DNA of 64,000 bases, taken from contig NZ_CP017080.1 in assembly GCF_001645685.2 (NCBI RefSeq), positions 1,726,001 to 1,790,000 of the forward strand, read 5' to 3'. Origin of the DNA: Peribacillus muralis. Its GTDB lineage: Bacteria > Bacillota > Bacilli > Bacillales > DSM-1321. The notes beneath the pieces are model-generated. The model was given only the letters and a program-made list of their open reading frames with translations. It ran no database searches and was not told where the DNA came from. Position numbers and translations under genes: made by a program. Shown piece by piece: positions 38,574 through 55,671 of the stretch (positions are counted from its first letter, which is position 1; each line of letters opens with the position of its first letter).

Positions 38574-39521
38574 ATGAAATTAGTAACTTTCAGTAATGAA
38601 GGATTTAAACGTATTGGGGCAATTTATCCGAATAATGAAATAGTGGACTTGAACTATGCATATCAAGCCTTGCTCGAGAGCGAGGGGAAACTTCGCGGTG
38701 AACAAATTGCCGAGGCGTATGTTCCAGCCACAATGGAAGCGTTCTTACAGGGAGGGAATGAAAGCCTTTCCATCGCCGTAAAGGCTGCAGATTATGCATT
38801 CCATAATCGAGACTCTTTCAAACATAAGTTGATCCATCAGGTTGAAGAAATTAAACTTGAGGCTCCTGTCCAAAAGCCAGGTAAGATCATTTGCGTCGGT
38901 CATAACTACCGTGAACACATTGCAGAAATGGGCCGCGAATTACCGCCATTCCCAGTAGTGTTCGCAAAGTTCGCCAATACTGTAATCGGTCCCCAGGATG
39001 ACATTCCCTTCTTCCCCATTTCTGAACAGCTGGATTATGAAGCGGAATTCGCTTTTGTCGTCGGACAAAGGGCACGAAATGTTACACAAGAGGAGGCACT
39101 TGATTATGTAGCGGGATATACGATTGCCAATGATGTTACATATCGTGATATCCAACGCCGCACGCTTGAATGGCTACAAGGAAAAACGGTTGAAGGAAGT
39201 GCTCCGATGGGGCCTTGGCTAGTCACTTCCGATGAGCTGCCCGATCCATCGGGTCTAAATGTTCGATTGACTGTTAATGGGGAAGAACGACAAAAGACGA
39301 ATACTGCCAACTTCGTATTCGACGTTAAATATTTAGTCGAATTCCTATCGAGCTTGATGACTCTTGAACCTGGCGATATCGTTCTCACAGGAACACCGGG
39401 CGGGGTAGGAGTTGCACGTGATCCTCAAGCATTCTTAAAAGACGGTGACGTAGTTAAAATCGAAATCGACAAAATAGGTTATCTTGAAAACCGCGTGAGT
39501 CGTGTTGAGGAGGGGAAATGA
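38574..39521 (+). CDS. Fumarylacetoacetate-hydrolase-family protein, probable fumarylpyruvate hydrolase
   Basis: A 315-residue FAH-family hydrolase. The metal-binding triad is visible: E156 and E158 (in DYEAEFAFVVG) and D187 (in TIANDVTYRD). KIICVGHNYREHIAEMG marks the lid/substrate region, and a C-terminal TPGGVGVARDP is typical. Next to gentisate dioxygenase, the likely reaction is hydrolysis of fumarylpyruvate (or maleylpyruvate) to fumarate or maleate and pyruvate. AAAGGAGAAG precedes the ATG. The stop overlaps the next start by ATGA. Confidence 0.87.
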   Translation: MKLVTFSNEGFKRIGAIYPNNEIVDLNYAYQALLESEGKLRGEQIAEAYVPATMEAFLQGGNESLSIAVKAADYAFHNRDSFKHKLIHQVEEIKLEAPVQKPGKIICVGHNYREHIAEMGRELPPFPVVFAKFANTVIGPQDDIPFFPISEQLDYEAEFAFVVGQRARNVTQEEALDYVAGYTIANDVTYRDIQRRTLEWLQGKTVEGSAPMGPWLVTSDELPDPSGLNVRLTVNGEERQKTNTANFVFDVKYLVEFLSSLMTLEPGDIVLTGTPGGVGVARDPQAFLKDGDVVKIEIDKIGYLENRVSRVEEGK

Positions 39522-40015
39522 TCATGACTTTTCAGAACATTGAAAAATCAATTGAATCAATTCAGCTATCAATAGACCATATTCTTGAGACAACCAAAAA
39601 CCTTCCGGAAGAAACGGTCCGCTGCAACCCGACAGAAGATGAATGGTCCATCTTGCAGATACTTTCCCATTTAGCAGAAGCCATTCCATATTGGTTAGGT
39701 GAAGTGAAAACGGTCGTGTCGATGCCTGGTTCCAAATGGGGACGCGGATTGCAGGATCCGGCCCGATTGGCAGCCGTCACTGATACGGAACGGCTTTCTG
39801 TGGATGAGGTTAAAAAACAAGTGGAGGAGCTTAAAGGTAAAGTGGAGAGCGTGCTCGGGAAATTAGATCAAGAAACCCTATCTAAGGAATCGCCACACCG
39901 GAATTTCGCTAAATTCGGAAATAAACCCGTTTCATATATTGTGGACCATTTCATCGATGAACATGTTTCAGGACACTATGGGCAGATCCAGAGAAATCTT
40001 TCAAAAATCAAATGA
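39518..40015 (+). CDS. DinB-fold metalloprotein, candidate thiol-dependent maleylpyruvate isomerase
   Basis: A 165-residue four-helix protein of the DinB/YfiT superfamily. The metal-binding His triad appears as H51 (LSHLAEAIPYW), H149 and H153 (DEHVSGHYGQ). The superfamily contains mycothiol-dependent maleylpyruvate isomerase and bacillithiol transferases. It is translationally coupled (ATGA) to the fumarylpyruvate hydrolase and followed by gentisate dioxygenase, exactly where the isomerase step is needed. I infer it isomerises maleylpyruvate to fumarylpyruvate using bacillithiol. A plain DinB-like protein of other function is the alternative. Confidence 0.75.
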   Translation: MIMTFQNIEKSIESIQLSIDHILETTKNLPEETVRCNPTEDEWSILQILSHLAEAIPYWLGEVKTVVSMPGSKWGRGLQDPARLAAVTDTERLSVDEVKKQVEELKGKVESVLGKLDQETLSKESPHRNFAKFGNKPVSYIVDHFIDEHVSGHYGQIQRNLSKIK

Positions 40016-40046
40016 AGATAGATAAAAAAAGAAAGCAGGGATTATT

Positions 40047-41159
40047 GTGGTTGAAAAACTAGAATACATGAATAGTGCAATCGTAAAAGATTTTACAAAG
40101 GATATCCAGCAGTATAATCTTGGTCCACTGTGGGAAGCGATTCCCGCTCTGATGGACCATGAACCTAAACCTCATGCCCATGCCTATTTATGGAAAGAAG
40201 AGCTTTTGACAAAAAAATTGTTGGAGGCTGCTGAAATCTTTACTCCCGATCGAGGGGGGGAGCGAAGGGCGATTTATTTTCAAAACCCAGGCTTAACTTA
40301 TCGCAAACCATGGGGATGGGCTTCGACAACACAAACGCTTTATGCAGCGGTGCAATTATTGTTGCCAGGTGAAGTGGCTCCTTCCCACCGCCACTCACAA
40401 AGTGCCCTGCGATTCATAACGAACGGAGAGGGTGCCTACACCATCGTTCAAGGAGAAAGGATTTTCATGGAAGAAGGAGATTTCTTGATCACGCCTAAAA
40501 ATTTATGGCATGGTCATGGCCATATCGGAGAAAAACCAATGATTTGGATGGATGCCCTAGATATTCCAACGATTTATTCCATAGGCGGCACATTTTTTGA
40601 ACCATACCCCGATCGAATCGAAACGCCTAAACGTCCGGATAATTTTTCGGAACTGCGTTATCATGGCGGAATGGTACGTCCCGTATCCGATCGTTATTCA
40701 CAAGTGGCTCCGCTTGCCAACTACAAGTGGGAAGGCACCAAAGCAGCAATTGAAGGATTGATGAATTTCGACCCTGATCCATATGAAGGTTTTGCCGTTG
40801 AATATATCAATCCTTCAAATGGGCAAACGGCCAATCCCACAATGGGGGCATGGATGCAAAAACTGCCAAAAGGATTTCATACTAAAGCACATCGCCATAC
40901 CCATTCCACGATCTATCAGGTACATCAAGGTACAGGTTATACGGTCATTAATGGCGTCCGCTTCGATTGGTCTAAGGGAGATTATTTCGTCGTTCCGAAT
41001 TGGGCTTGGCATGAACACGTTGCAGAAGTGGATTCTTATCTATTCTCGGTAAATGACCTTCCAATAATGGAGAGATTCGATTTGGAACAGGAGCAGGCAT
41101 TTGATGCAAACAATGGATACCAAAAGGTTGAAAGTGAATTTAAGCCTGTATTGGTATAA
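40047..41159 (+). CDS. Gentisate 1,2-dioxygenase
   Basis: A bicupin ring-cleaving dioxygenase that opens gentisate between C1 and C2 to give maleylpyruvate using Fe(II) and O2. The 370-residue length is standard. The N-terminal cupin has H114 and H116 in APSHRHSQSALRF and a third His in LWHGHGH (about 155-159). The second cupin keeps KAHRHTHSTIYQV and WAWHEH. The start is GTG 40047 behind GCAGGG; ATG 40068 lacks a ribosome binding site. It forms an operon with the upstream hydrolase and DinB protein. Confidence 0.93.
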   Translation: MVEKLEYMNSAIVKDFTKDIQQYNLGPLWEAIPALMDHEPKPHAHAYLWKEELLTKKLLEAAEIFTPDRGGERRAIYFQNPGLTYRKPWGWASTTQTLYAAVQLLLPGEVAPSHRHSQSALRFITNGEGAYTIVQGERIFMEEGDFLITPKNLWHGHGHIGEKPMIWMDALDIPTIYSIGGTFFEPYPDRIETPKRPDNFSELRYHGGMVRPVSDRYSQVAPLANYKWEGTKAAIEGLMNFDPDPYEGFAVEYINPSNGQTANPTMGAWMQKLPKGFHTKAHRHTHSTIYQVHQGTGYTVINGVRFDWSKGDYFVVPNWAWHEHVAEVDSYLFSVNDLPIMERFDLEQEQAFDANNGYQKVESEFKPVLV

Positions 41160-41285
41160 AAGTGCTTCAAGATGATTGAAGGCATCCAGCTCAAGATGAT
41201 TACGAGAGAATACTGATCAAAAGAAAGCGTTTACTACGTTCCAGTGTATAACTTTGCTATAGGCAACTATATTCGGGGGGAATAG

Positions 41286-42494
41286 ATGATGAACAGAGAA
41301 AACAAACCATTCATCGTTATCGGTGGTGGAATAGGTGGATTGGCAACGGCTCTAGGTATAGCGGAAACAAAACAATATGTGAAAGTTTTGGAACAGGCAC
41401 CTGAATTTGGGGAAATCGGTGCGGGGATTCAGCTGGCTGCAAACGCAACCAATGTTTTACAGCGTCTAGGTGTGATGGATAAAATCAACGAAATTGCAGT
41501 CTTTCCAAAAAGGCTGGTACTTATGGATGCCTTTTCAGGCAAGGAGCTTTCCGCTTTGGATTTAGGTGATGTTTATAAAGAAAGATATGGTGCGCCATAC
41601 GTTGTTTTGCATCGTTCCGATTTGCATAAAGTACTAGCAGAAGCTTGTGAAAGCAACCCATTTATCGAGCTGGTAACTAACCAAACCATCATCGAAGCAG
41701 AGGAAAGTGATGGCGAGGTTACCGTTATTGCTTCAGATGGATCCCACCATTCAGGTACGGCCATCATCGGAGCGGATGGTTTATGGTCCAATGCACGTAA
41801 ACTGTTTGTGGAAGATCAACCGGTCTGCTCGCAATATGTGGCCTATAGAGGAGCTATCCCGATGGAGGAGGTAACAAGCCATGGAGATCTGGATGATGTA
41901 TATATGTGGATTGGGCCCAATCTTCATCTTGTTCAATATCCGGTTAGAAGGGGTGAACTGTACAACCAAGTAGTGGTCTTCAAAAGCTCCGAATACACAA
42001 AAGAAAACGAACATACAATCCACTGGGGTACACCTGAAGAAATGGATCGTATTTTTGCAGGAACTTGCGAGCTTGTTCAAAATGCAATTTCATTCATCCA
42101 ACGTCAGCGTCGCTGGCCGATGTATGACCGACTACCGATTGATAATTGGACAAAAGGCAGGATTACGCTTATGGGTGATGCTGCACATCCGATGCTTCAA
42201 TACTTGGCACAGGGTGCCTGCCAGGCTTTAGAGGATGCAGCCTATTTGACGGATATGCTGCACAAGCATGGGCAAGACATAGAACAAGCATTTGTGGAAT
42301 ATCAAAAAGAACGCATTCCTCGCACCGCGAATGTTCAGAACAGTGCAAGAATGTGGGGGGAAATCATCCACAATACGACCGATGCAGGCATTCTGCTTCG
42401 TGATACGATCCTATTAAGCCGCACGGATAAGGATTTCCAATTCATTGATGAATTCCATGGTTACAATAAAAAGGCACGTGAAAGCATCATCTGA
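41286..42494 (+). CDS. 3-hydroxybenzoate 6-monooxygenase-like flavoprotein
   Basis: A 402-residue group A FAD monooxygenase. The FAD motif GGGIGGLATALG is near the N-terminus, a DG motif (GADGLWSNARK) lies in the middle, and GDAAHPMLQYLAQGACQALEDA is the second FAD motif. Its position directly after gentisate dioxygenase and its resemblance to 3-hydroxybenzoate 6-hydroxylases make conversion of 3-hydroxybenzoate to gentisate the most likely reaction; salicylate 5-hydroxylation is less likely for a single-component enzyme. GGGGGGA lies before two adjacent ATG starts. A hairpin follows at 42543. Confidence 0.88.
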   Translation: MMNRENKPFIVIGGGIGGLATALGIAETKQYVKVLEQAPEFGEIGAGIQLAANATNVLQRLGVMDKINEIAVFPKRLVLMDAFSGKELSALDLGDVYKERYGAPYVVLHRSDLHKVLAEACESNPFIELVTNQTIIEAEESDGEVTVIASDGSHHSGTAIIGADGLWSNARKLFVEDQPVCSQYVAYRGAIPMEEVTSHGDLDDVYMWIGPNLHLVQYPVRRGELYNQVVVFKSSEYTKENEHTIHWGTPEEMDRIFAGTCELVQNAISFIQRQRRWPMYDRLPIDNWTKGRITLMGDAAHPMLQYLAQGACQALEDAAYLTDMLHKHGQDIEQAFVEYQKERIPRTANVQNSARMWGEIIHNTTDAGILLRDTILLSRTDKDFQFIDEFHGYNKKARESII

Positions 42495-43237: not shown

Positions 43238-44278
43238 ATGGCAGAAAATAGAGAACAAAAAAGTACAGGCATAGTTCGTACGGTACTTGGACCTGTTCCG
43301 GCTCAGGAACTAGGTGTTGTACTCATTCATGAATCACTTCTTTCTGTAACGCCCGGGGCAGAATATGCACCTGAAATTGATATGGATAAGAGTAAGATTT
43401 TTGATATTTTACAGCGTAAACTAATAGATTTCCGTCGTAATGGCGGAAGAACGATTGTAGATCATAGCGGTATGTTCCATGGCCGTGACGTGAAACTTTA
43501 TGAAACACTTTCTAAGACGACAGGGGTACATATTGTAGCCTCAACAGGGTTAGGGCCAGAGGGAATGCTAAGTGGGTATTTTACTACTCCGCAAACTCAT
43601 CCACCAACACCTTGGCCAGCAGAACAATTTGCTGGTTTGTTCATTAAAGAGGTAATTGAAGGTATTGTGGTACCACGTGTTGAACGGTCAGGTCCAGCAG
43701 GCATAGTAACGTCAATTGCAACTCAAAGCGGGATTGTGGAAATTGAAGAGAACCTTTTCCGCGGTTGTGCACAAACAGCTTTGGCAACAGGAGTACCTGT
43801 ATCCTTGCAATATGGTGCAAATGCTCTAAATGACTTGGAAGTTGCATTAAGCGAAGGCATTGAAACGCACCGTGTCATAATCGGGGGACTAGACCGTCTA
43901 GATGCAGTGAAACGTAAAGAAGCATTCGCTATTGCTGAACGTGGCGCGTATGTTGCATTAGATCATGTTGGCTGGTCTACACCCGAAGGCTATATTAATG
44001 ATATGGAGCGTGCTCGGTTAATTGCAGAACTATTCGAAAAAGGACTTGGTGAACGCGTCCTGATTTCTACGAACGCCGTTGGCTGTGCTAAAGGTCATGA
44101 AACAAAGGATATTGACTACAATTACCTACTGACAAAATTCGTGCCATTTCTGCATGAAGCAGGCATGTTGAATGAAGAAATTCGTATATTGTTAGAGGAT
44201 AATCCACAACGCGTACTGGCTGGTGATGCCACCGCAGTTGTCAAAAAGGAAACTGCTGTGGGAGCAAAACAAAAATAA
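43238..44278 (+). CDS. Phosphotriesterase-fold protein lacking the metal ligands (pseudoenzyme)
   Basis: A 346-residue homologue of phosphotriesterase-like lactonases, clearly related to the next gene (shared TVLGP start, GGRTIVDHSGMFHGRDV versus GGKTFVDCTGIGNGRDV). Aligned by eye, five of the six metal-site residues of the active paralogue are replaced: the second His of HxH is S33 (IHESLL), the carboxylated Lys is T158, and the next ligands are Q191, G217 and N279. Only the first His (H31) is retained. The fold should persist but binuclear metal catalysis should not. AAGGAGG precedes the ATG. It leads a long operon and may serve as a partner subunit or binding protein (inference). Confidence 0.85.
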   Translation: MAENREQKSTGIVRTVLGPVPAQELGVVLIHESLLSVTPGAEYAPEIDMDKSKIFDILQRKLIDFRRNGGRTIVDHSGMFHGRDVKLYETLSKTTGVHIVASTGLGPEGMLSGYFTTPQTHPPTPWPAEQFAGLFIKEVIEGIVVPRVERSGPAGIVTSIATQSGIVEIEENLFRGCAQTALATGVPVSLQYGANALNDLEVALSEGIETHRVIIGGLDRLDAVKRKEAFAIAERGAYVALDHVGWSTPEGYINDMERARLIAELFEKGLGERVLISTNAVGCAKGHETKDIDYNYLLTKFVPFLHEAGMLNEEIRILLEDNPQRVLAGDATAVVKKETAVGAKQK

Positions 44279-44298
44279 ATGCGAGGAGTGAATAAATT

Positions 44299-45327
44299 AT
44301 GGGTAAGGTAAATACGGTTCTAGGTCCGATAGCTTCAGAGGATTTAGGAATCACTGCAATGCATGAACATATTGGTTTTGGTCTTCCGGGATGTGACTTG
44401 GATACTCAGTGGTGGAAAAAACCTGAAGGAGCATTTGATGTTACCATTCGAAAGTTGCGACGCTTTCGTGAACACGGCGGTAAAACATTCGTTGATTGTA
44501 CGGGGATCGGAAATGGGCGTGATGTTGAATATTTCCAAGTGCTTTCTCGCAGAACTGGTGTCAATATCGTTGCTGTTACAGGTTTTGTAGCAGGAGATTC
44601 AGCGTTGCCCTATTTCCGTAATAAAACAGTTGAGTATCTTGCCGATTTATTCATACATGAAATTACGGTAGGTATTGATGGAACAAGAGCAAAAGCTGGT
44701 GCAGTTAAAGTAGGTGTCAGCAGGGAAGGTCTAAGTGAACTGGATCAACGCATTTATCGGGCAGCTGCACGTGCTGCTGTGAAAACTGGTGTTCCTATCA
44801 TTACACACTTATCAACAGAACCGGAGCTAGCCATTGACATTTTTGAATCGGAAGGATTACCTCTAAATCGTGTACTTATGGGACATGCAGATGTTGGTCA
44901 AGATGCCGATGAAGAGCGTGATAAAATGATTGCAAGCCGAGGCGGATATGTAGGTTTCGATACGATTGGTTATGACAAGGAGATGGAAGACGCGCCGTAT
45001 TGGTCACGTCCTCGTCAAGAACGTGTTAATCATTTTCTTTCTTTCCTGGAAAAAGGTTTTCTGGAAAGGGCCGTCATTTCAGCCGATGCTAACTGCTGTG
45101 CTCTAGGCTGGCCAGGATTAAAGGGGCATTCTGTAAACTACCTATTTGAAGAATTCATCCCCGACCTTCGAAAAGCGGGCGTAGCTGAAGATGTATTTGA
45201 CCAACTGTTAGTTCGTACTCCTGCAATTTTCCTTACGATGCAAGAACCTAATGGATCTTTTGGCAGTCCGATGGCCAATACGTCAGCAAACAACAATATA
45301 ATAAACGTGCCTGTTATCGGAAAATGA
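44299..45327 (+). CDS. Phosphotriesterase-like metallohydrolase (probable lactonase)
   Basis: A 342-residue amidohydrolase-superfamily enzyme with the full binuclear metal site: H22 and H24 (MHEHIGF), the bridging carboxylated Lys K137 (AKAGAVKVGVS), H170 (PIITHLSTE), H196 (LMGHADVG) and D263 (ISADANC). Relatives hydrolyse lactones, some with promiscuous phosphotriesterase activity. It starts 21 bases after the metal-free paralogue with ribosome binding site GAGGAGTG. In this operon a lactone or cyclic ester intermediate is the likely substrate. Confidence 0.87.
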   Translation: MGKVNTVLGPIASEDLGITAMHEHIGFGLPGCDLDTQWWKKPEGAFDVTIRKLRRFREHGGKTFVDCTGIGNGRDVEYFQVLSRRTGVNIVAVTGFVAGDSALPYFRNKTVEYLADLFIHEITVGIDGTRAKAGAVKVGVSREGLSELDQRIYRAAARAAVKTGVPIITHLSTEPELAIDIFESEGLPLNRVLMGHADVGQDADEERDKMIASRGGYVGFDTIGYDKEMEDAPYWSRPRQERVNHFLSFLEKGFLERAVISADANCCALGWPGLKGHSVNYLFEEFIPDLRKAGVAEDVFDQLLVRTPAIFLTMQEPNGSFGSPMANTSANNNIINVPVIGK

Positions 45328-45404
45328 CCTTTTAGAAATAATGGCCGAACATAGTGTTTAAGTTAAAGTTTCTATTCAACAAGTCCAACAGGAGGTTAAG
45401 AAAG

Positions 45405-46568
45405 ATGACCATTAAAGGAAGGGCCTATATTGCAGGCGCATTTGAACATCCAATACGCAAAGCTCCTGACATGTCTGTTTCTACCATACATGCTGAATGT
45501 GCTAGAGGCGCATTGGCTGACGCTGGACTTTCATTTGCAGATGTCGATGGCTATTTTTGTGCGGGTGACGCACCTGGAGGCGTTCAATCTATGGTTGATT
45601 ATCTAGGTCTCGACGTCCGGCATGTAGATGGGACAGATACAGGTGGTTCTTCTTATATTGCTCACGTTTCACATGCCGCACAGGCAATAATATCAGGTGC
45701 ATGTAATGTTGCCTTGATCACCATGGGAGGTCGACCCCGCTCAGAAGGCAGAAGCGGCGTTAAACAAAAGATGGTTGGAGCGAATGTTCCTGATTCACCT
45801 TTTGAATTTCCTTATGGTCCAACAGCTGTAAATGAGTATGCAATGGCCACAATGCGCCACATGTACGAATATGGTACAACGAGTGAACAGCTTGCATGGG
45901 TAAAAGTTGCGGCTTCACATCATGCCAGTTTCAACCCAGATGCACTGCTGCGTGATGTAGTAACGGTAGATGATGTGCTTTCTTCTCCGATGATTGCCGA
46001 TCCATTGCATCGTTTGGATTGCTGTGTAGTTAGTGATGGTGGCGGTGCTATCGTAGTGGTGAGTCCTGAAATCGCCAAAAGTCTCAAACGCCCACTTATC
46101 CGAGTGATGGGAGCTGGAGAATCAATCAAGGGACTTTTGGGGGGCAAAGCAGACATAACTTATAGTGGTGGTGTTTGGTCTGGGGCAGCAGCTTTTGCGG
46201 AGGCTGGAGTAAAGCCACAAGATATTAAGTATGCCTCAATCTATGATAGCTTTACCATCACGGTGTTGATGCAGCTTGAGGATTTAGGTTTCTGCAATAA
46301 GGGCGAAGGCGGTAAGTTTGTTGCCGATGGGAACCTAATTTCTGGGGTTGGCAAACTCCCAATCAATACAGATGGTGGGGGGCTGAATAACAATCACCCA
46401 TCGAGTCGGGGCGGTATGGTTAAACTGATAGAAGCTGTACGCCAACTCCGTGGAGAAGCACATCCAAAGGTCCAAGTAAGCAATTGTGATCTTGCATTGG
46501 TTCATGGTACTGGTGGCGGTCTCGCAAGTCGACATGGCAGTGCAACATTGATTTTGGAAAGGGTGTAG
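45405..46568 (+). CDS. Thiolase-like (SCP-x/Ltp2-type) protein without the usual nucleophilic Cys
   Basis: A 387-residue thiolase-superfamily protein of the lipid-transfer/SCP-x group. Where thiolases have the acylated Cys (about residue 78-82) this protein reads GTDTGGSSY, with no Cys. The late catalytic region keeps the YDSFTITVLMQLEDLGFC block and a VHGTGGGLASRHG end. This pattern, with a DUF35 gene next door, resembles steroid side-chain aldolases Ltp2/ChsH2 rather than true thiolases. ATG 45405 follows GGAGG; the frame is open to 45354 without support. The likely role is retro-aldol C-C cleavage of an acyl-CoA, an inference. Confidence 0.82.
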   Translation: MTIKGRAYIAGAFEHPIRKAPDMSVSTIHAECARGALADAGLSFADVDGYFCAGDAPGGVQSMVDYLGLDVRHVDGTDTGGSSYIAHVSHAAQAIISGACNVALITMGGRPRSEGRSGVKQKMVGANVPDSPFEFPYGPTAVNEYAMATMRHMYEYGTTSEQLAWVKVAASHHASFNPDALLRDVVTVDDVLSSPMIADPLHRLDCCVVSDGGGAIVVVSPEIAKSLKRPLIRVMGAGESIKGLLGGKADITYSGGVWSGAAAFAEAGVKPQDIKYASIYDSFTITVLMQLEDLGFCNKGEGGKFVADGNLISGVGKLPINTDGGGLNNNHPSSRGGMVKLIEAVRQLRGEAHPKVQVSNCDLALVHGTGGGLASRHGSATLILERV

Positions 46569-46571
46569 TTA

Positions 46572-46979
46572 ATGGGGGCTTATGAATCAAGAAAGTTGGC
46601 AATCCCAGAAACTCATCCAGAACACGAAGAGTATTGGGAGGCAGCTGCAGAAGGAAATTTAATTCTTAAACACTGTGATTCTTGCGGTGAATATCATTAT
46701 TATCCACGTGAGCTGTGCCCGTTTTGCAAAAGCGATAAAACGACATGGAAAGGAGCGAAAGGAACGGGAACCATTTACACATATAGTGTAATGCGAAAAG
46801 GGGGCCAATATGCGATCGCCTTTGTCACACTTGATGAAGGTCCAAGGATGATGACGAATATCGTCGACTGTGATCTGAATGGACTTCACATTGACCAACG
46901 GGTGAAAGTGGTATTCAAGCAAAGCGGCAATCAAGATAACCCTGGTCCGTTTGTACCGTGCTTCACTCCTATCCTCTAA
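46572..46979 (+). CDS. DUF35 zinc-ribbon/OB-fold partner of the thiolase-like protein
   Basis: A 135-residue DUF35 protein. The N-terminal zinc ribbon has C35, C38, C49 and C52 (HCDSCGE and LCPFCKS), followed by an OB-fold with GTGTIYTYSVMRKG and FVTLDEGPRMMTNIVD. DUF35 proteins bind acyl-CoA and complex with thiolase-superfamily enzymes such as Ltp2 or HMG-CoA synthase. It starts four bases after the thiolase-like gene, supporting a two-protein complex. Confidence 0.88.
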   Translation: MGAYESRKLAIPETHPEHEEYWEAAAEGNLILKHCDSCGEYHYYPRELCPFCKSDKTTWKGAKGTGTIYTYSVMRKGGQYAIAFVTLDEGPRMMTNIVDCDLNGLHIDQRVKVVFKQSGNQDNPGPFVPCFTPIL

Positions 46980-47088: not shown

Positions 47089-48819
47089 ATGATTATCACT
47101 AAGGATGCACGCATGCAAATGCGTGACGGAGTGCACATCTCTGCAGATATATACCGTCCAGAAAGCATAGGAAAAGTACCGGCTTTGCTGGCGCTTAGTC
47201 CATACGGAAAAGAATTGCAAGCGCAGGCGTTAACTTTACCTCCACAAGCGCGCCCAAGCCATCTTTGGAACGGAGCAATTGAAGCAGGGGATATTCGTGA
47301 AGTGGTATCACGAGGGTATGCCCATATTATTGCAGACGTTCGTGGTACAGGTGCCTCGGAAGGTCAGATGTGCGGTAACTATAACTCTGGCGGTCATGGT
47401 GATGGCAAAGACATTTATGACATCGTGGAATGGTTGGCAGAACAAGATTGGTGCGATGGCAACATTGGAATGATTGGAATTTCATACTTTGCATCTGTTC
47501 AAATTCTAGGTGCAGCAGAGCAACCGCCGCACTTAAAGGCGATCTTTGCAAACGGTGGTCACTTCGATCTTTATGAACTTTGTTATCATGGCGGAATCAT
47601 GTGGCTAATGCCGCGTGCTTCTCGTGAAGGACGCGGGGGCGATAGCGGAAACGCATTCACTAACGTAGCGAGTAAGAGTTCAAAAGTATTCACTCAGGAT
47701 GAGCTAGAACGAATGACGCAAGACCGCTTACGTGATCCGGATATTTCGCATTGGTCGGATTTCGTTCACCTGCTTCATTATCAAGACCGTCATGAATTAT
47801 GGATGGATTATTTATTAAATCCACTAGATGGCGAGTTTTGGAAAGCTAATTCTGCTATAGAAGTAGCACATAAAATAACAATTCCAACTTACTTTCAAGC
47901 GAAATGGGGCCGTGGCTGGAACGTTGAAGGTACACTCGAATGCTTCGAAAAAGTATCTGGAATAAAGAAGCTTGATATTCAAGCGCTGCCTCCAATGCTG
48001 GAGCGTCCGTTCCACGAATGCCATGACGATATGTTCCGGTGGTATGATTACTGGTTAAAAGGAATTGATACAGGTATTATGGAGGAGCCGGCTGTACAGT
48101 TTTCAGTAGAAGGTTCTTACAAATGGCGCGGTGAAAACGAATGGCCATTGCCATTTGAAGAAAAGAAGCAGTTCTACTTACGTCCTCGTCATAAAATTAG
48201 CGACAAACCAGAGCCATTGACTTCTGAATATGCACATCCTGATGGCTTCTACCAAGCGCCATTAACAGTAACAACAATATCTGAAAAAATTAAATGGACT
48301 AGTGATAGATTCCAAGAACCAGTTGAAATGACAGGGACAGGTGCTTTATACGTACATGTGGAAATCGATACGGATGATACGAACTTTATCGCAAAGCTTT
48401 ACGATGTAAGCCCAAGCGGAAAACGCACCATGATGACATCAGGCTATTTAAAAGCATCCCATCGGGAATTGGACGTGGCAAAATCGAAATTTGGCGAGCC
48501 ATGGCACCCTCATGACCGAACGGTCCCAGTAGAACCTGGTGAAATTATCGAGTACGCGATTCGTTTATATCCATTCTCCTTCTTAATCAAGCCAGGTCAT
48601 CGCATTGAATTGGAACTTGCCTGTAACGAACCGCTAGATGGGGAAGATGCAAAATTGTTGCCGCCGGATAGCTATCACTTACCCAGTGGTCGTGCAACAA
48701 CGCATAAAATCTATCGAGATAATGACCACCATTCTCGTCTAGTATTGCCAGTCATTCCAAATGAGTTAAATGTTTTGAACAAGCCTAACAACGTACTGTA
48801 TGGGAAAGCAAATAAGTAA
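47089..48819 (+). CDS. CocE/NonD-type serine acyl esterase
   Basis: A 576-residue alpha/beta hydrolase of the X-Pro dipeptidyl-peptidase S15/CocE family, which hydrolyses esters or amides of bulky acyl groups. The nucleophile elbow GISYF places the Ser at residue 132; VRGTGASEGQ is the oxyanion-side motif typical of the family; RPFHECHDDMFRWYDYWLKG marks the end of the catalytic domain, followed by a C-terminal jelly-roll beta domain (from about 340). No signal peptide is visible, so it acts in the cytoplasm. AGGAGAG precedes the ATG. Confidence 0.87.
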   Translation: MIITKDARMQMRDGVHISADIYRPESIGKVPALLALSPYGKELQAQALTLPPQARPSHLWNGAIEAGDIREVVSRGYAHIIADVRGTGASEGQMCGNYNSGGHGDGKDIYDIVEWLAEQDWCDGNIGMIGISYFASVQILGAAEQPPHLKAIFANGGHFDLYELCYHGGIMWLMPRASREGRGGDSGNAFTNVASKSSKVFTQDELERMTQDRLRDPDISHWSDFVHLLHYQDRHELWMDYLLNPLDGEFWKANSAIEVAHKITIPTYFQAKWGRGWNVEGTLECFEKVSGIKKLDIQALPPMLERPFHECHDDMFRWYDYWLKGIDTGIMEEPAVQFSVEGSYKWRGENEWPLPFEEKKQFYLRPRHKISDKPEPLTSEYAHPDGFYQAPLTVTTISEKIKWTSDRFQEPVEMTGTGALYVHVEIDTDDTNFIAKLYDVSPSGKRTMMTSGYLKASHRELDVAKSKFGEPWHPHDRTVPVEPGEIIEYAIRLYPFSFLIKPGHRIELELACNEPLDGEDAKLLPPDSYHLPSGRATTHKIYRDNDHHSRLVLPVIPNELNVLNKPNNVLYGKANK

Positions 48820-48898
48820 AATAAGTGAAGCATTTGGCTGCTCCCCATTCCTAGCAAGAAGGGGGTGTGGTCACAATATGATTAGAGGAGTGAACAGC

Positions 48899-49849
48899 AT
48901 GACTTCAGTACGCATTATTCCGATTGAATGCAAATTTGGTTCAACCTCTGCGTATGTCTATTATATCGACGCGCCTGAGCCAGCTCTTATCGATACTGGA
49001 ATTGCCTCATCGGCTTCTTGTGAAATCGAAACAGTTCTTGCCGAGCATGGTTTACGGATCGAAGATATACGCTGGATTCTCCTTACCCACGGACATGTTG
49101 ATCATTTAGGCGGTGCCAGCAAGATTTGGGAGAAAACCGGTGGCCGTGCAGAAGTTGTGATTTCAAAGAAGGAAGCCTATTTACTTCGTGATCGCGCAAA
49201 ACACCTTACTGATTATACTGGGCTGCAAGGTAAATATTTGGACCATGAAATCCAGAAGAAGCATGCGGCGATTTTGATGAATGATATCGGAGGAGATTTG
49301 GAACCAACCTTAGAAGTCGTTGATGGCGATAAGATTTCACTAGGCGGTGAAGTTTCGATAACGGTAGTGGAAACGCCAGGACACTCTATCGGATCTGTGA
49401 CTTTTGTCCTTGATGGATTGGAATGGGCGTTTGCAGCTGACGCTGTACAAATATACGGAGGGGCGCAGAGCGGCATTCCTACAATTGAACACCCTGCTTT
49501 ATATCGAAAAAGTTTACAGCATCTTCTTGAGAATGTGCGTCCGAACCGCTTGTACTTAGGACATAAATTCCGGGACGGTAAAGGAAAGGTACTTAGTCCG
49601 CAAATTGACGAAGATGAGGTTACGGCTGTTCTTCAAGCGAGTCTTGAAATGGATGCGAAGTTAGCTCTTGTTGTCAGTCGGCATATGACAGAAAATGAAG
49701 CGTCCTATGACAATGTTGGCATATATGGACCATTCCGATCGATTGCGGCTGAATTGAACTATACAGGCAATCCAAATCATCTGCCTTGTGCTTTCTTTGT
49801 AACGCTTAATGGATATCAAGAAGAACTGATTGGTACTCATAATAAATGA
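48899..49849 (+). CDS. Metallo-beta-lactamase-fold hydrolase
   Basis: A 316-residue MBL-fold metallohydrolase with the signature THGHVDHLGG (H64, H66, D68, H69), a later TPGHSIGSVTF His and FAADAVQIYG Asp, and a C-terminal helical part. Relatives include lactonases and thioesterases of the glyoxalase II group. I take ATG 48899 behind GAGGAGTG; the open frame runs back to 48800, overlapping the esterase, without support. With the lactonase and esterase it gives this operon three distinct hydrolase folds. Confidence 0.85.
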   Translation: MTSVRIIPIECKFGSTSAYVYYIDAPEPALIDTGIASSASCEIETVLAEHGLRIEDIRWILLTHGHVDHLGGASKIWEKTGGRAEVVISKKEAYLLRDRAKHLTDYTGLQGKYLDHEIQKKHAAILMNDIGGDLEPTLEVVDGDKISLGGEVSITVVETPGHSIGSVTFVLDGLEWAFAADAVQIYGGAQSGIPTIEHPALYRKSLQHLLENVRPNRLYLGHKFRDGKGKVLSPQIDEDEVTAVLQASLEMDAKLALVVSRHMTENEASYDNVGIYGPFRSIAAELNYTGNPNHLPCAFFVTLNGYQEELIGTHNK

Positions 49850-49865
49850 AAGGAGGAATACCGAG

Positions 49866-50561
49866 ATGATTCAAAAGAAGTACGAAAGTGCAGCTAAAGC
49901 TGTTGCTGATATGAAAGATGGAGCAACATTACTCGTTGGCGGGTTTGGCGGAAGCGGGCTGCCATCGCACCTTGTTAGTGCCCTTACGGAGCGAGGGGCG
50001 AATGACTTGACAGTCGTATCCAATAATATCGGCGCAGTCAGTGACGGTGTTGCTGCACTTATCAGCAATAACCAAGTGCGAAAGATAATTTGCTCTTTTC
50101 CTGTTGGGCCGCATGCCCACGAACTGATCCAGCGTATAGAAGAAGGGCGGATTGAATTAGAAATAGTTCCTCAAGGAACATTAGCGGAGCGTATCCGTGC
50201 CGGGGGAGCAGGTGTACCAGCTTTTTATACCCCAACGGCTGCTCACACAGAACTAGGAGAAGGCAAGGAAACGCGTATATTCAATGAGAGGTTACATCTC
50301 TTAGAGCATGCAATAAAAGGTGATTACGCTTTTATCAAGGCACAGCGGGCAGACCGCTGGGGTAATCTTGTTTATAATAAGACGCAGCGTAACTTCAATC
50401 CGGTAATGGCAACCGCTGCACGGATTACAATCGCTGAGGTAGATGAAATCGTGGAAGTTGGAGAAATAGATCCTGAAACAATCGTAACACCGAGCGTATA
50501 CGTACATCGGTTAGTAAAACTAAAGGCGCAAAGTGAAGGGAGAGTTTTAGTGAATGAGTAA
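49866..50561 (+). CDS. 3-oxoacid CoA-transferase family, subunit A
   Basis: A 231-residue alpha subunit of a family I CoA-transferase (succinyl-CoA:3-oxoacid, 3-oxoadipate or related). The glycine-rich LVGGFGGSGLPSHLVSAL opening, NNIGAVSDG and SFPVGPHAHELIQR are typical. ATG 49866 follows AGGAGG at good spacing; the frame is open back to 49830 but that overlaps the previous gene. It overlaps subunit B by eight bases. It would activate a carboxylic acid by transferring CoA from succinyl- or acetyl-CoA, feeding the thiolase-like enzyme. Confidence 0.9.
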   Translation: MIQKKYESAAKAVADMKDGATLLVGGFGGSGLPSHLVSALTERGANDLTVVSNNIGAVSDGVAALISNNQVRKIICSFPVGPHAHELIQRIEEGRIELEIVPQGTLAERIRAGGAGVPAFYTPTAAHTELGEGKETRIFNERLHLLEHAIKGDYAFIKAQRADRWGNLVYNKTQRNFNPVMATAARITIAEVDEIVEVGEIDPETIVTPSVYVHRLVKLKAQSEGRVLVNE

Positions 50562-51243
50562 TGAACAACTGGGGGTAGGATGGACAAAGATGGAGCTAGC
50601 TTCTCGAGTGGCGCTTGACCTGGAAGATGGATGGTTCGTTAATCTTGGCATCGGACTCCCGACTCTTGTCGCTGAAGTGATCCCTAAAGATCGGGAAATC
50701 ATCCTTCATAGTGAAAATGGACTGCTGGGGCTAGGTCCAAAGCCAGAACCAGGTGAAGAGGATATGGACCTTGTGAATGCTGGTAAGGAACCTATTACAT
50801 TAAAGCCTGGTGGCAGCTTCTTTTCACAATCAGAATCTTTTGCGATGATTCGCGGCGGACATCTTGATGCAGCGGTGCTTGGTGCATTCCAAGTTTCGAT
50901 GTACGGTGATCTTGCCAGTTGGAAATTGCCTGATGCTACCCTTGGCCGTGTTGGCGGCGCCATGGATTTGACCGTTGGCAGTAAGCGTGTCTTTCTTTGT
51001 ATGCAGCATACGAGTAAGGGAGTGCCGAAGATAGTGGAGGAATGTACTTACCCACTGACTGCATCACGATGTGTAAATCGTATCTATACAAACCTTGCGG
51101 TGATATACGTGACTGACGATGGCCTTGTCGTTCATGAACTCGCCCCAGGCGTTACGTTCGAATATCTACAGGCATGTACTGCTGCTCCGCTTAAGATTCG
51201 TGCGTCAAATAATGTGAAAGCTAATACTCTGGAGGTGCAGTAA
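50554..51243 (+). CDS. 3-oxoacid CoA-transferase family, subunit B
   Basis: The 229-residue beta subunit partner. The catalytic Glu that carries the CoA thioester is E54 in the motif HSENGLLGLG; NLGIGLPTLVAEV and GGHLDAAVLGAFQVS are further family motifs. Its start overlaps subunit A, and its stop TAA shares one base with the next ATG, so subunits and regulator are translated as one coupled unit. Confidence 0.9.
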   Translation: MSNEQLGVGWTKMELASRVALDLEDGWFVNLGIGLPTLVAEVIPKDREIILHSENGLLGLGPKPEPGEEDMDLVNAGKEPITLKPGGSFFSQSESFAMIRGGHLDAAVLGAFQVSMYGDLASWKLPDATLGRVGGAMDLTVGSKRVFLCMQHTSKGVPKIVEECTYPLTASRCVNRIYTNLAVIYVTDDGLVVHELAPGVTFEYLQACTAAPLKIRASNNVKANTLEVQ

Positions 51244-51989
51244 TGATAAAAAAATACACCATTGATCGCAGTTCATCGGTGCCCATTTATAAACAAATCA
51301 AGGAAATCCTCATTAAGGAACTTCAGGCAGCCGAAGGGGCAACTGGGCGACCGTTCAGTACAGAGCAGGAGCTGGTTCAACGTTTTCATGTAAGCCGTGC
51401 TCCTGTTCGTCAAGCATTGAAGGAACTTGCCAATGAGGGGTACGTTTACCGGGAGCGGGCGAAAGGAACCTTTCCTGTTCAGGCACTTCCCGTTCGTCCT
51501 CCAGGTCTCGAGTTAGGAGGATTGGTCGGCTTCCTTCGCGATCAAGGATTAGATTGTACTTCAAAAATATTAAGTGTGGATCATGTGTTACCCACAGAGA
51601 AGTTGTGCGTAATCCTTAATCTTGAGCCGAGTGATAAAGTCTTGAGGACTTCTCGTTTAATCTTGCTCAAAGGGAAACCGCTAGTATGGACACAGACGTA
51701 TCTTGTAGTCGCGGAGGATTTCCTGCCAGATGCACTGGAACTCGAGGAGGCTGAAAGTGTTTTCGTGCTTCTTGAGAGAGAACAGGGCATTTACATCTCC
51801 CGGGGTGACCACCTGATTTGTGCGTCAGGAGCGAGTGGTATGGAAGCAGAGATATTAGGCATTAACAATGGCGACCCGACTCTTATAATCGAGACGAAGC
51901 TGTACTCAAGAAATGATCGCCTCATAGGCTGGAGAAGGGCAGTCCATATAGCTGACGATTATAAGTTTTCTTTCACAGTGAACCGGTAA
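51243..51989 (+). CDS. GntR-family (HutC/UTRA-type) regulator of the operon
   Basis: A 248-residue regulator with an N-terminal winged helix (PIYKQIKEILIKELQ, FSTEQELVQRFHVSRAPVRQ, ALKELANEGYVYRERAKG) and a C-terminal UTRA effector domain. It is the last gene of the 43238-51989 operon, coupled to the CoA-transferase by a one-base overlap, so it probably autoregulates the operon in response to a pathway metabolite. The inverted repeat at 42870-42943 is a candidate site. Confidence 0.87.
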   Translation: MIKKYTIDRSSSVPIYKQIKEILIKELQAAEGATGRPFSTEQELVQRFHVSRAPVRQALKELANEGYVYRERAKGTFPVQALPVRPPGLELGGLVGFLRDQGLDCTSKILSVDHVLPTEKLCVILNLEPSDKVLRTSRLILLKGKPLVWTQTYLVVAEDFLPDALELEEAESVFVLLEREQGIYISRGDHLICASGASGMEAEILGINNGDPTLIIETKLYSRNDRLIGWRRAVHIADDYKFSFTVNR

Positions 51990-52207
51990 GATATTTGGTG
52001 GGAACCACGAAAAAGTCAGGATGGCAGGAACAATCAATGAACCAATTTGTTTGAAAACGTGGGTAGGAAAGGGTGAGAATAAGCTTTCAGGCTGCGGACA
52101 AACTCCATGATTTAAAGGAGAGTTTTGGAGTTTGTCGATCTTTCTTGAAAAGGGAAGGCATGTTGTTATATGAATTGTTTGTACTTTATACGGCAGGGGG
52201 GGTTAGG

Positions 52208-53554
52208 GTGTCTCAAATAAACATTACCGACGTTGTGAATGAAGGAGAATTTAACCGCTTTCATTTAGGGATATTGATTTGCTGCTGCTTGATCATTACT
52301 TTTGATATGTTCGATCTTGTTATATATAGCTCTGTCTTACCTGTCCTGATGGAGGAATGGGCCATATCACCTGTACAAGCAGGTGCCATTGGAAGTTATG
52401 GCTTTCTTGGGATGATGTTGGGTGCTATATTCTTTGGAATTTTGGCTGACAGATTGGGAAGGAAAAATATCCTAATTCTATGCGTGTTTATATTTAGCAT
52501 CTTTACGTTTTTATGTGCGTTTGCACATGGTCCATCCATATTTTCTGTTTTCCGGTTTGTTGCAGGAGTGGGGATAGGCGGTGTTTTACCGAATGTGATT
52601 GCTTTATTAACAGAATATGCACCGAAAAACAAGCAAAACATGATGGTCTCAATGGTGATGTGCTGCTTTTCCGTAGGCGGTATTTTGGCCGCCCTGATAG
52701 GGATCTACGTTATGCCTGTAATAGGTTGGCAAAGGGTATTTTGGGTAGGTGTGATACCTCTTATGCTTATTCCTTACATGGTCAAGCATTTTCATGATTC
52801 TCCCTCAATTCTTTTGATGAAAGGGAGAGTGGACGAACTTCGTTTAGTTCTTTCAAAGGTGAATAATAAGTTCTTGCTTTCCCAGGACATCGAGTTTGAA
52901 GCTATAATAAATGAAAAATCATCTGGCTCTCCTGTCTTGGGTTTGTTTAAAAACGATCGGGCATTAGGTACAGTGATGATATGGATTGCCTTTTTCATGT
53001 GTTTGTTAATGATCAATGGGTTAACTATTTGGCTCCCTAATTTGATGTTCAGTGCCGGCTATGCCCTTGGTTCCTCTTTAAGTTTTGTAATTGTGTTAAA
53101 TATTGGGGCCATTATTGGAACGTTAATACTTGGTAGTCTTGCAGATAAATATGGGGTTAAAAATGTGCTCGTTCCGGTGTTTCTAATGGCGTCCATATGC
53201 TTGATGCTTCTTGGTCTTAAAAATAACATGTTCATATTATATGTGCTGGTTGCCATTACTGGCGCATGCACAATGGGGGCTCAAAACATTTCATATTCCT
53301 TTGTTTCTCACTATTATCCTCCATTAATGCGCTCGACTGCCGTTGGTCTTGCTTCTGGAATTGGAAGGATTGGCGGGATCATTGGTCCAACTTTCGGGGG
53401 AATCCTTGTATCTCTTAATTTATCAGTACAAATGAATTTCATTTCGTTTGCGATTCCAGGCATTGTTGCGGCCATTGCATTTTCATTTGTTCCTTTAAAA
53501 TTTTCAACTCACAGAAAAAATAAAAGAAATGGCATAGGAGGGAAATATTTATGA
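52208..53554 (+). CDS. MFS aromatic acid:H+ symporter (AAHS family)
   Basis: A 448-residue transporter of the BenK/PcaK group. The characteristic DMFDLVIYSSVLPVLMEEW segment in the first helix, GILADRLGRKN loop motif and a second-half GSLADKYGVKN are present, with twelve membrane segments. I choose GTG 52208 behind GGGGGGTTAG because AAHS proteins begin at this point; the open frame back to 52073 adds unrelated residues. It overlaps the next monooxygenase gene by ATGA, so transport and hydroxylation of an aromatic acid are probably paired. It may also serve the gentisate module. Confidence 0.87.
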   Translation: MSQINITDVVNEGEFNRFHLGILICCCLIITFDMFDLVIYSSVLPVLMEEWAISPVQAGAIGSYGFLGMMLGAIFFGILADRLGRKNILILCVFIFSIFTFLCAFAHGPSIFSVFRFVAGVGIGGVLPNVIALLTEYAPKNKQNMMVSMVMCCFSVGGILAALIGIYVMPVIGWQRVFWVGVIPLMLIPYMVKHFHDSPSILLMKGRVDELRLVLSKVNNKFLLSQDIEFEAIINEKSSGSPVLGLFKNDRALGTVMIWIAFFMCLLMINGLTIWLPNLMFSAGYALGSSLSFVIVLNIGAIIGTLILGSLADKYGVKNVLVPVFLMASICLMLLGLKNNMFILYVLVAITGACTMGAQNISYSFVSHYYPPLMRSTAVGLASGIGRIGGIIGPTFGGILVSLNLSVQMNFISFAIPGIVAAIAFSFVPLKFSTHRKNKRNGIGGKYL

Positions 53555-54648
53555 AATCAAAATCGGGATTAAGGATTGCAATTATCGGAGCCGGCATAGG
53601 TGGTTCGTCAGCTGCAGTGGCACTAAAAGCGAAAGGAATTCGTGCAGACGTGTATGAGCAGGCACCTGCCTTAGGAGAGGTTGGTGCAGGTATCGGTATC
53701 CGTCCTCCAACCGTAAACTGCTTCAAAAAATGGGGTTTGTATGAGGATATTGAAAAATTAACTTCACGCAGTGACTTCATGGAAATCATAATGGGAGATG
53801 ACCAAGTATTCATTAAAGAAGCATGGCCGGTGTTGACGGATGATAAATCCGAAGCGTACGCTCGTTTGATTCACCGGGCTGATTTACTGGATACATTAAT
53901 CGCTCATATTCCAGCAGATCAACTTCATTTAAACCATTGTTTAACGGAAATGATTGATCACGGTGACCACGCGGAAGTGAAATTTGCCAATGGCAAAACA
54001 ATTGAAGCGGATATCGTGGTAGCAGCGGATGGGATCCGTTCACCAATTCGGGCACAAGTTTTGGGTCAACATGATCCAGTATATTCTGGTTACCTAGCCC
54101 ACCGTGTACTGGTTTCTAATGATGAAGTGCTTGGCATGTCTTCAGAAGAAAACATCTTACGTATTTTTGTAGACGGTAAGAATTCAGTTTATTTGTTGCC
54201 ATTAGAACACCGTCAGCAAGTTTCTGTTGATATTACTGTTCCTGGAAAGTTCTCCTGGCGTCCAGAAATGACGAAAGAAGAAATCATGAAGAGTATTGAG
54301 GGCTTTGGACCTACCATTCAAAAAATCATTGAAAATATTAAATTGGAAGATATCGTAACACGTCCGTTATGTGATATTGAACCAATGACAACATGGAGCA
54401 CTAAGTGTGTAACATTAATTGGGGATGCTGCTCACGCAATGCTTCACAACCAGGGCCAAGGGGCGAATATGGCCATCCAAGATGCGGATGTTTTAGCAGA
54501 AGAGATTGCTAAAGCGGAAACACCAGCAGAAGCATTGCAAAATTACGAAGAACAACGTAAACCGATTACGAAGCTCTATCAGAATTTGTCCCGACTGTTC
54601 CCAACTGATGAAGCGGAAACCGCATTCCCGGAAAAGGCGCATTTCTAA
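53551..54648 (+). CDS. Group A FAD-dependent aromatic monooxygenase
   Basis: A 365-residue flavoprotein hydroxylase resembling salicylate/6-hydroxynicotinate-type enzymes. It has GAGIGGSSAAVAL for FAD, ADGIRSPIRAQ as the DG motif and GDAAHAMLHNQGQGANMAIQDA as the second FAD site. AGGAGGG precedes the ATG, and the start overlaps the transporter stop. The substrate is unknown; it is distinct from the 3-hydroxybenzoate-type enzyme at 41286, so the region has two aromatic hydroxylases. Confidence 0.86.
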   Translation: MKSKSGLRIAIIGAGIGGSSAAVALKAKGIRADVYEQAPALGEVGAGIGIRPPTVNCFKKWGLYEDIEKLTSRSDFMEIIMGDDQVFIKEAWPVLTDDKSEAYARLIHRADLLDTLIAHIPADQLHLNHCLTEMIDHGDHAEVKFANGKTIEADIVVAADGIRSPIRAQVLGQHDPVYSGYLAHRVLVSNDEVLGMSSEENILRIFVDGKNSVYLLPLEHRQQVSVDITVPGKFSWRPEMTKEEIMKSIEGFGPTIQKIIENIKLEDIVTRPLCDIEPMTTWSTKCVTLIGDAAHAMLHNQGQGANMAIQDADVLAEEIAKAETPAEALQNYEEQRKPITKLYQNLSRLFPTDEAETAFPEKAHF

Positions 54649-54744
54649 AAAATCGAAGGATAGAGTTAGTTGCTGAATTTACAGAATATTAAAATTATTT
54701 TTGGTTTTCATTAGTTATTGAAAAGGAATAAGGAGGTATCACAA

Positions 54745-55671
54745 TTGCCTGTACATCCCGAAATAAAAAAGGTATTGAATTACATTCAGAAATCCGTTTC
54801 TAACCATAAAATCATTCCGGAAGAACATAGAACAGCGTTCAATGCACCTAGTTTACCTGTTGAAAAACGTGTCCAAGTCTATTGTATCGAAGAAAATTCG
54901 ATTCCGAGTCCAGAAACAAATATACCGGTAAGAATTTATACACCCCATGAAAGCGATTCTTATCCGTTGATAATTTATTTCCACGGGGGCGCATTTTTCT
55001 CTGGGAATTTAGAAAGCCATGATGAGATCGTTCGCCAAATTTGTCAGGAATCCGGATGTAAAGTAATTTCTGTTGATTACCGGCTAGCTCCGGAGTACCC
55101 GTTTCCTGCTGCCTTAAATGATTGTTATCATGTCACAAAATGGGCCGCGGAACACAGGGATGAATTAAAATGGGACGGGCAGAATCTAGCCCTTGCAGGG
55201 GATAGTTCTGGTGGAAACCTAGTTGCTGCCGTATCTCTAATGGCCCGTGACAATCGCAATTTCACCATTACGAAACAAGTGTTGTATTATCCATCATTAG
55301 ATCTTGACTTCAGTGAATTCCGTTATAAATCCTTAGTTGAAAATGGAAAGGGATATTTCGTAGAAAGCAATAAATTAGCAGAACTTAATTCCTTTTATCT
55401 AATGGGAAATGCAGATACGGATCATCCTTATGTTTCACCAATTCGAGAAGATAATTTAGATAATCTCCCTGCTGCACTTGTAATCACTGCAGAATATGAT
55501 CCTTTCCGTGATGAAGGAGAACTATTTGCTGAGAAATTAAAAAAATGCGGTGTACATGTCGAAACAAAAAGGTATGAAGGTGCCACTCATGGTTTCTTAG
55601 GCAAATTTACGCACTTAGATGAATACAGCGACGTGTATAAACGTACAGCTGAATTTTTAAGATCGAAATAA
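54745..55671 (+). CDS. HSL-type alpha/beta hydrolase (carboxylesterase)
   Basis: A 308-residue hormone-sensitive-lipase-family esterase. The oxyanion motif is FHGGAFFSG (about 79-87), the nucleophile Ser is S154 in GDSSGGN, and Asp and His are D251 (AEYDPFRDEG) and H281 (THGF). I choose TTG 54745 because AAGGAGGT lies seven bases upstream; the frame also opens with a TTG at 54718 without support. It may release an aromatic or aliphatic acid from an ester for the neighbouring pathway. The following 55672-55968 contains only a stem-loop. Confidence 0.86.
   Translation: MPVHPEIKKVLNYIQKSVSNHKIIPEEHRTAFNAPSLPVEKRVQVYCIEENSIPSPETNIPVRIYTPHESDSYPLIIYFHGGAFFSGNLESHDEIVRQICQESGCKVISVDYRLAPEYPFPAALNDCYHVTKWAAEHRDELKWDGQNLALAGDSSGGNLVAAVSLMARDNRNFTITKQVLYYPSLDLDFSEFRYKSLVENGKGYFVESNKLAELNSFYLMGNADTDHPYVSPIREDNLDNLPAALVITAEYDPFRDEGELFAEKLKKCGVHVETKRYEGATHGFLGKFTHLDEYSDVYKRTAEFLRSK

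Follow-up and report, generated by a model that had tools for sequence, protein, structure and literature searches.

The window analysed here, a stretch of 64,000 nt from Peribacillus muralis, carries two adjacent genes of the phosphotriesterase (PTE) family, and the question raised by this locus is what a protein without the metal site of the family does beside a relative in which the site is intact. The upstream gene, here called X (43238..44278, + strand), encodes a protein of 346 aa, and the downstream gene, A (44299..45327, + strand), encodes a protein of 342 aa; both frames are intact. Both proteins matched the Pfam model PF02126 (cut-off 22.4 bits), X with 136.3 bits (1.9e-39) over profile positions 3-297 of 298 and A with 193.7 bits (6.5e-57) over nearly the full profile. 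They are about 33% identical to each other and were the sole PTE matches in the 5.0 Mb genome (E <= 0.001). The nearest solved chains to A were 'organophosphorus hydrolase' 3f4c and aryldialkylphosphatases of the SsoPox type.

As metalloenzymes, PF02126 proteins have an HxH motif, a carboxylated Lys or Glu, two His and an Asp. All six ligands are found in A (H22, H24, K137, H170, H196 and D263), while the aligned residues of X are H31, S33, T158, Q191, G217 and N279, so that X belongs to the family by descent but not as a metalloenzyme. The initial annotation had given these residues and had claimed that five of the six ligands were gone from X with frame and length preserved. The residue numbers proved correct for both proteins, and the loss was confirmed together with the intact frames and the full-length PF02126 match.

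Ligands were counted over 100 distinct homologues, namely 21 X, 25 A and 54 other proteins. Before identical proteins were removed there were 24, 28 and 56 rows, respectively, the 24 X rows representing 22 records (21 genomes and one plasmid) with two genomes included twice. The metal site was absent from all 21 distinct X proteins, which read HSTQGN (18), HTTQGN (2) or, in Caballeronia, SSVRGS (1), and no ligand-bearing X was present among them. Every distinct A read HHKHHD (25/25). The other homologues, a non-random set of mostly best-scoring matches to X in genome searches plus two plasmid records, read HHEHHD in 41 cases and HHKHHD in 12, with one incomplete frame; the site was thus kept in 53 of the 54, which rules out ligand loss as a habit of the whole family. 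When X was left out of the profile, none of the 21 X rows had K, H or D at any of the five lost positions. The X-free profile put Ser at the Lys site in six of these rows (S159, not T158, in the row of the window); in 19 rows the Gln site was gapped. Misaligned ligands as the cause of the apparent loss were ruled out by the two alignments. Position 97 of A was Val in 25/25 proteins; 49 of the 54 other homologues had Tyr there, presumably the active-site Tyr of PTE-like lactonases, and A is therefore an atypical PTE at this position.

Two families were searched, those of P. muralis and Neobacillus drentensis, and 21 of their 236 genomes carried full-length X, as did one Caballeronia plasmid. 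Six of 43 genomes in the window's own family had X (E 1.2e-163 or lower), and A was present in the same six; in the N. drentensis family X was detected in 15 of 193 genomes (E 8.5e-160 or lower) and A in the same 15 at E 1e-70. Strains in which the pair was located include Peribacillus simplex VanAntwerpen02 and Peribacillus sp. SI8-4. The position of the ligand-less form beside an intact neighbour, as first noted for this locus, was recovered by the homologue search in all 22 records with full-length X, where X adjoined A on the same strand at a distance of -4 to +94 nt. No X away from A was found across the 236 genomes or the full-length-X records. A CocE gene showed the same distribution (15 + 6, or 21/236 genomes), which indicates that the operon travels as a whole; since co-occurrence is common to CocE, it is evidence of operon membership and not of X-A pairing alone.

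In a sample of the order (397 genomes), X occurred in the genome of the window and in a single sister genome, and a third family contributed one genome with X fragments (G389; L148, L149, L150). In G389, X is cut off by the contig end on two contigs, each carrying the same first 127 residues; other contig ends begin with A genes, two in all. Probably these are two X-A pairs left unresolved by the assembly. The fragments, in which the first two ligand positions are H and A, were left out of the ligand counts. No further X appeared in samples of the class (398 genomes) and the phylum (398), which overlap with each other and with the order sample; three other proteins, all with a full site, passed E 1e-40, a cut-off that a much diverged X could escape. 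In a plasmid collection, 185 records matched X, and among the 30 listed Caballeronia insecticola p2 was the best at 49.7% identity, the next being at 32.5%. Matches on a Curtobacterium plasmid (32.5% identity, HHEHHD) and a Sinorhizobium plasmid (27.8%, HHKHHD) have full sites and were rejected as X. Short exact peptide patterns in genome contigs gave six loci, all of them in Bacillota. The search beyond Bacillota consisted of plasmids and these peptide patterns, which leaves other phyla under-sampled for X. The viral contigs scanned held no relative, and there was no match in PHROGs at E 0.01.

In the window the pair is followed on the + strand by genes for a thiolase-like protein of the PRK08142 family (45354..46568, the true start probably lying some 17 codons downstream), a ChsH2-type zinc-ribbon/OB-fold protein that is a probable thiolase partner (46572..46979), a CocE/NonD family hydrolase (47089..48819), a metallo-beta-lactamase-fold (MBL) hydrolase of uncertain start (48800..49849), 3-oxoacid CoA-transferase family subunits A (49830..50561) and B (50554..51243), a GntR-family regulator (51243..51989), an MFS transporter nearest to the aromatic acid/H+ symport family, below the cut-off of that model (52073..53554), an FAD-dependent monooxygenase related to 6-hydroxynicotinate 3-monooxygenase and tropone 2-monooxygenase (53551..54648) and an alpha/beta hydrolase of hormone-sensitive-lipase type (54718..55671). 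The order in Bacillota was X, A, thiolase-like, OB-fold, CocE, MBL and the two CoA-transferase subunits, A before B; GntR and MFS genes often came next, and the FAD monooxygenase and alpha/beta hydrolase genes closed the series, several stretches ending short of the distal genes. Among the 21 other stretches with full-length X, A was present in 21, the thiolase and OB-fold genes in 20 (Caballeronia being the exception) and CocE in 18, the three stretches without CocE ending early.

The plasmid cluster of Caballeronia runs from P450 through ferredoxin, reductase, X, A, FAD monooxygenase, alpha/beta hydrolase, MBL and CocE to transporter genes. Six genes are common to this plasmid and the window at 40-56% identity, including CocE (orthologue, 56%), the alpha/beta hydrolase (46%), the MBL protein (42%) and the monooxygenase (40%). 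Thiolase, OB-fold and CoA-transferase genes are absent from the plasmid cluster; X and A overlap there by 4 nt, and their adjacency survives the re-ordering. The adjacencies found in the same order in Bacillota and Caballeronia are X-A and FAD monooxygenase-hydrolase. The catabolic operon perhaps acts on an aromatic acid or a related ring compound, and the family names of its products suggest a route of ring hydroxylation, hydrolytic opening, CoA activation and thiolytic cleavage. No published operon of this kind was seen among the best literature matches listed for the pathway.

In a tree of 99 homologues (one incomplete homologue, L022, was dropped), X (21 rows) and A (25 rows) formed separate clades, each with support of 100/100 and each with Bacillota and Caballeronia members. 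Because of long branches, little weight can be placed on Caballeronia A branching within the A clade of Bacillota, or on X and A being sisters. The dN/dS of X was 0.10-0.18 in nine overlapping pairwise comparisons, which corresponds to purifying selection. That of A was 0.07-0.08 in eight of the nine, and the ninth (L023-L024), with a dS of 0.004, was not used for this range.

These values bear directly on the simplest account of a ligand-less copy, that X is a decaying duplicate hitch-hiking in the operon. Non-synonymous sites of X do evolve about twice as fast as those of A, and one duplicated cluster retains a mere remnant of X; nevertheless, all 22 full-length X frames are intact, selection on X is purifying, the X proteins of Bacillota and Caballeronia are still about 50% identical, and no X with ligands was found from which the others could be read as decayed. 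The pseudogene reading is contradicted by the dN/dS of X and by its own clade across two phyla, and we consider it extremely improbable; the initial view that X is conserved and not a randomly decayed gene was upheld on the same grounds, while the roles first suggested for it, as heteromeric partner, allosteric subunit or ligand-binding protein, are putative. It is also quite improbable, if somewhat less so, that X is an enzyme whose metal site has been displaced to other residues. Candidate residues can be named, as H31 is kept in 20/21 X proteins, D219, D242 and H243 occur in 21/21 and E32 is invariant across X and A. However, H31 is replaced by S in Caballeronia, neither alignment placed His, Lys or Asp at the five lost positions, and D219, D242 and H243 were the sole invariant residues of metal-binding type among 34 pocket positions picked by hand.

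A stronger competitor is the proposal that X works on its own in the same pathway as a neofunctionalised protein, either a metal-independent enzyme or a binding protein using a re-made pocket. Conservation is strong in the former pocket of X (mean entropy 0.304 vs 0.679 elsewhere, p 0.0004), and relative to the rest of the protein nearly as strong as in active relatives (0.203 vs 0.567 in A; 0.919 vs 1.610 in the others), where the pocket set, like the interface set used below, is a rough one chosen by hand from the lactonase literature. The pocket has gained the invariants M79, F80, G106, P107, R220 and H243, which are rare in A and the others, and has retained D219 and D242. Such conservation with new residues makes ligand binding or metal-free activity a serious rival. 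The HisA/HisF barrel model PF00977 also matched five of seven X proteins weakly (best 25.2 bits, cut-off 23.6) and none of seven A proteins at the same E limit of 0.1; the match spans X residues 177-290, and G-G-[LM]-D-R takes the place of the G-H of the metal site. Against a stand-alone role, the former ligand positions differ between Bacillota (HSTQGN or HTTQGN) and Caballeronia (SSVRGS), so there is no conserved catalytic set at those positions. Moreover, X was never found apart from A in the genomes and records searched, and positions at the mouth of a barrel are conserved anyway; the pocket set was hand-picked. We regard this proposal as plausible, with a likelihood clearly short of even.

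The reading we prefer, to which we give about an even chance, is that X is a metal-free pseudoenzyme subunit of A, most likely in an X-A heteromer that adopts the two-fold dimer arrangement of PTE-like lactonases and acts in the catabolic operon for an aromatic acid or ring compound. A would hydrolyse a lactone or ester intermediate in a metal-dependent manner. X, keeping the barrel and the re-made pocket, would form a physical complex with A and might supply stability, substrate recognition or ligand-gated control. This partnership is argued for by the adjacency in 22/22 records, the occurrence in the same 21/236 genomes and the persistence of the adjacency in the re-ordered Caballeronia cluster. 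The presence of Caballeronia in both clades, the constraint on X seen in its dN/dS and an insertion in X near the place of SsoPox F104 point in the same direction.

The insertion, which is found in X only, is rich in proline and tryptophan and covers residues 116-128; seven of its 13 columns are invariant in the 21 X proteins (P118, Q119, P122, P123, P125, W126 and A128). According to parts of the published accounts, PTE-like lactonases are homodimers with an interface near the neighbouring active sites (PMC3468530, PMC4323659), position 34 is a pivot of that interface (PMC3468530, PMC3781021, PMC4323659) and, in SsoPox, W263 of loop 8 packs against F104 of the partner monomer (PMC3781021). 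When mapped by hand through the alignment, the insertion lies directly after the F104 equivalent, which is G113 in X. The W263 place is occupied in X by H, Y or E, and in A by Trp271 (25/25; mapped by hand from a structure alignment). G113, the insertion and the lost Trp suggest a changed interface in X, as far as can be judged from sequence. The interface segments themselves count against a heteromer, as the hand-chosen set showed no excess conservation in X (p about 0.36-0.38), while an excess was found in A (p about 0.004-0.005).

That A depends on X as an obligate partner is questioned by extra A copies in two N. drentensis-family genomes out of the 15 with X. These copies lie about 8-12 kb from the pair and keep all six ligands. 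One (L165, 3700-4671) is preceded by the last 45 residues of X (3535-3669), and no trace of X was found in the 3.2 kb before the other (L151, 3235-4194). Probably the X-A pair was duplicated and X was then lost at the extra copies. Since these A genes lack a neighbouring intact X, A may work without X in cis. They may instead use X made nearby, as both genomes have an intact X elsewhere. A more elaborate form of the partnership, in which X and A make a PTE heteromer conserved as a unit in two phyla and the X pocket, as a sensor or as a site of metal-free catalysis, works in sequence with the metal site of A, seems to us rather doubtful.

Dihydroorotase and PTE belong to the same amidohydrolase superfamily. 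The pseudo-dihydroorotase of Pseudomonas aeruginosa is an inactive homologue that is necessary for aspartate transcarbamoylase activity, as stated in part of the source (PMC7053772). It resembles X in being inactive and differs in that its partner is the transcarbamoylase, not an active paralogue. Closer in arrangement are the trypanosomatid 'prozyme' pairs of deoxyhypusine synthase and AdoMetDC, in which, according to sections of two papers, a dead paralogue was shown experimentally to activate the active one (PMC3663545, PMC5201418). As in the X-A pair, a dead paralogue is conserved beside or with an active one; the enzymes and hosts are other, and activation, experimental there, is for X and A a prediction. 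Within the PTE-like lactonases and phosphotriesterases (PF02126; SsoPox, GsP, Brevundimonas PTE), the likeness lies in the six ligands of A and in the near full-length match of both proteins. X differs by having no metal site and A by Val97, and the members described in the parts of the literature cited above are homodimers. No paper in the open-licence literature searched brought 'phosphotriesterase' together with 'pseudoenzyme', and PTE-family heteromers or dead paralogues were absent from the best matches listed. The initial statement that no active/inactive PTE pair has been described is consistent with these matches. The pair thus belongs to a kind already known, in which an inactive paralogue accompanies its active twin, and no PTE example of this kind was found among these matches.

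PTE is a standard model for the evolution of enzyme functions, and a conserved X lineage beside an active sister would offer this field a pseudoenzyme to study, along with a possible evolutionary path by which a homodimer became a heteromer. The pair also marks an uncharacterised catabolic operon in Bacillota and Caballeronia. Tropone 2-monooxygenase is the second kind of solved relative of the FAD monooxygenase (53551-54648) and is a possible hint to the substrate class. Upstream of the pair, 38574-42494 holds genes of gentisate-type ring cleavage (hydrolase, gentisate dioxygenase and 3-hydroxybenzoate 6-monooxygenase families); these occur with the pair in only four of the 21 other stretches and are therefore placed outside the operon core. 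Further upstream of the catabolic cluster, two overlapping frames on the - strand (34813-36160) resemble, by eye, one transposase broken by a frameshift.
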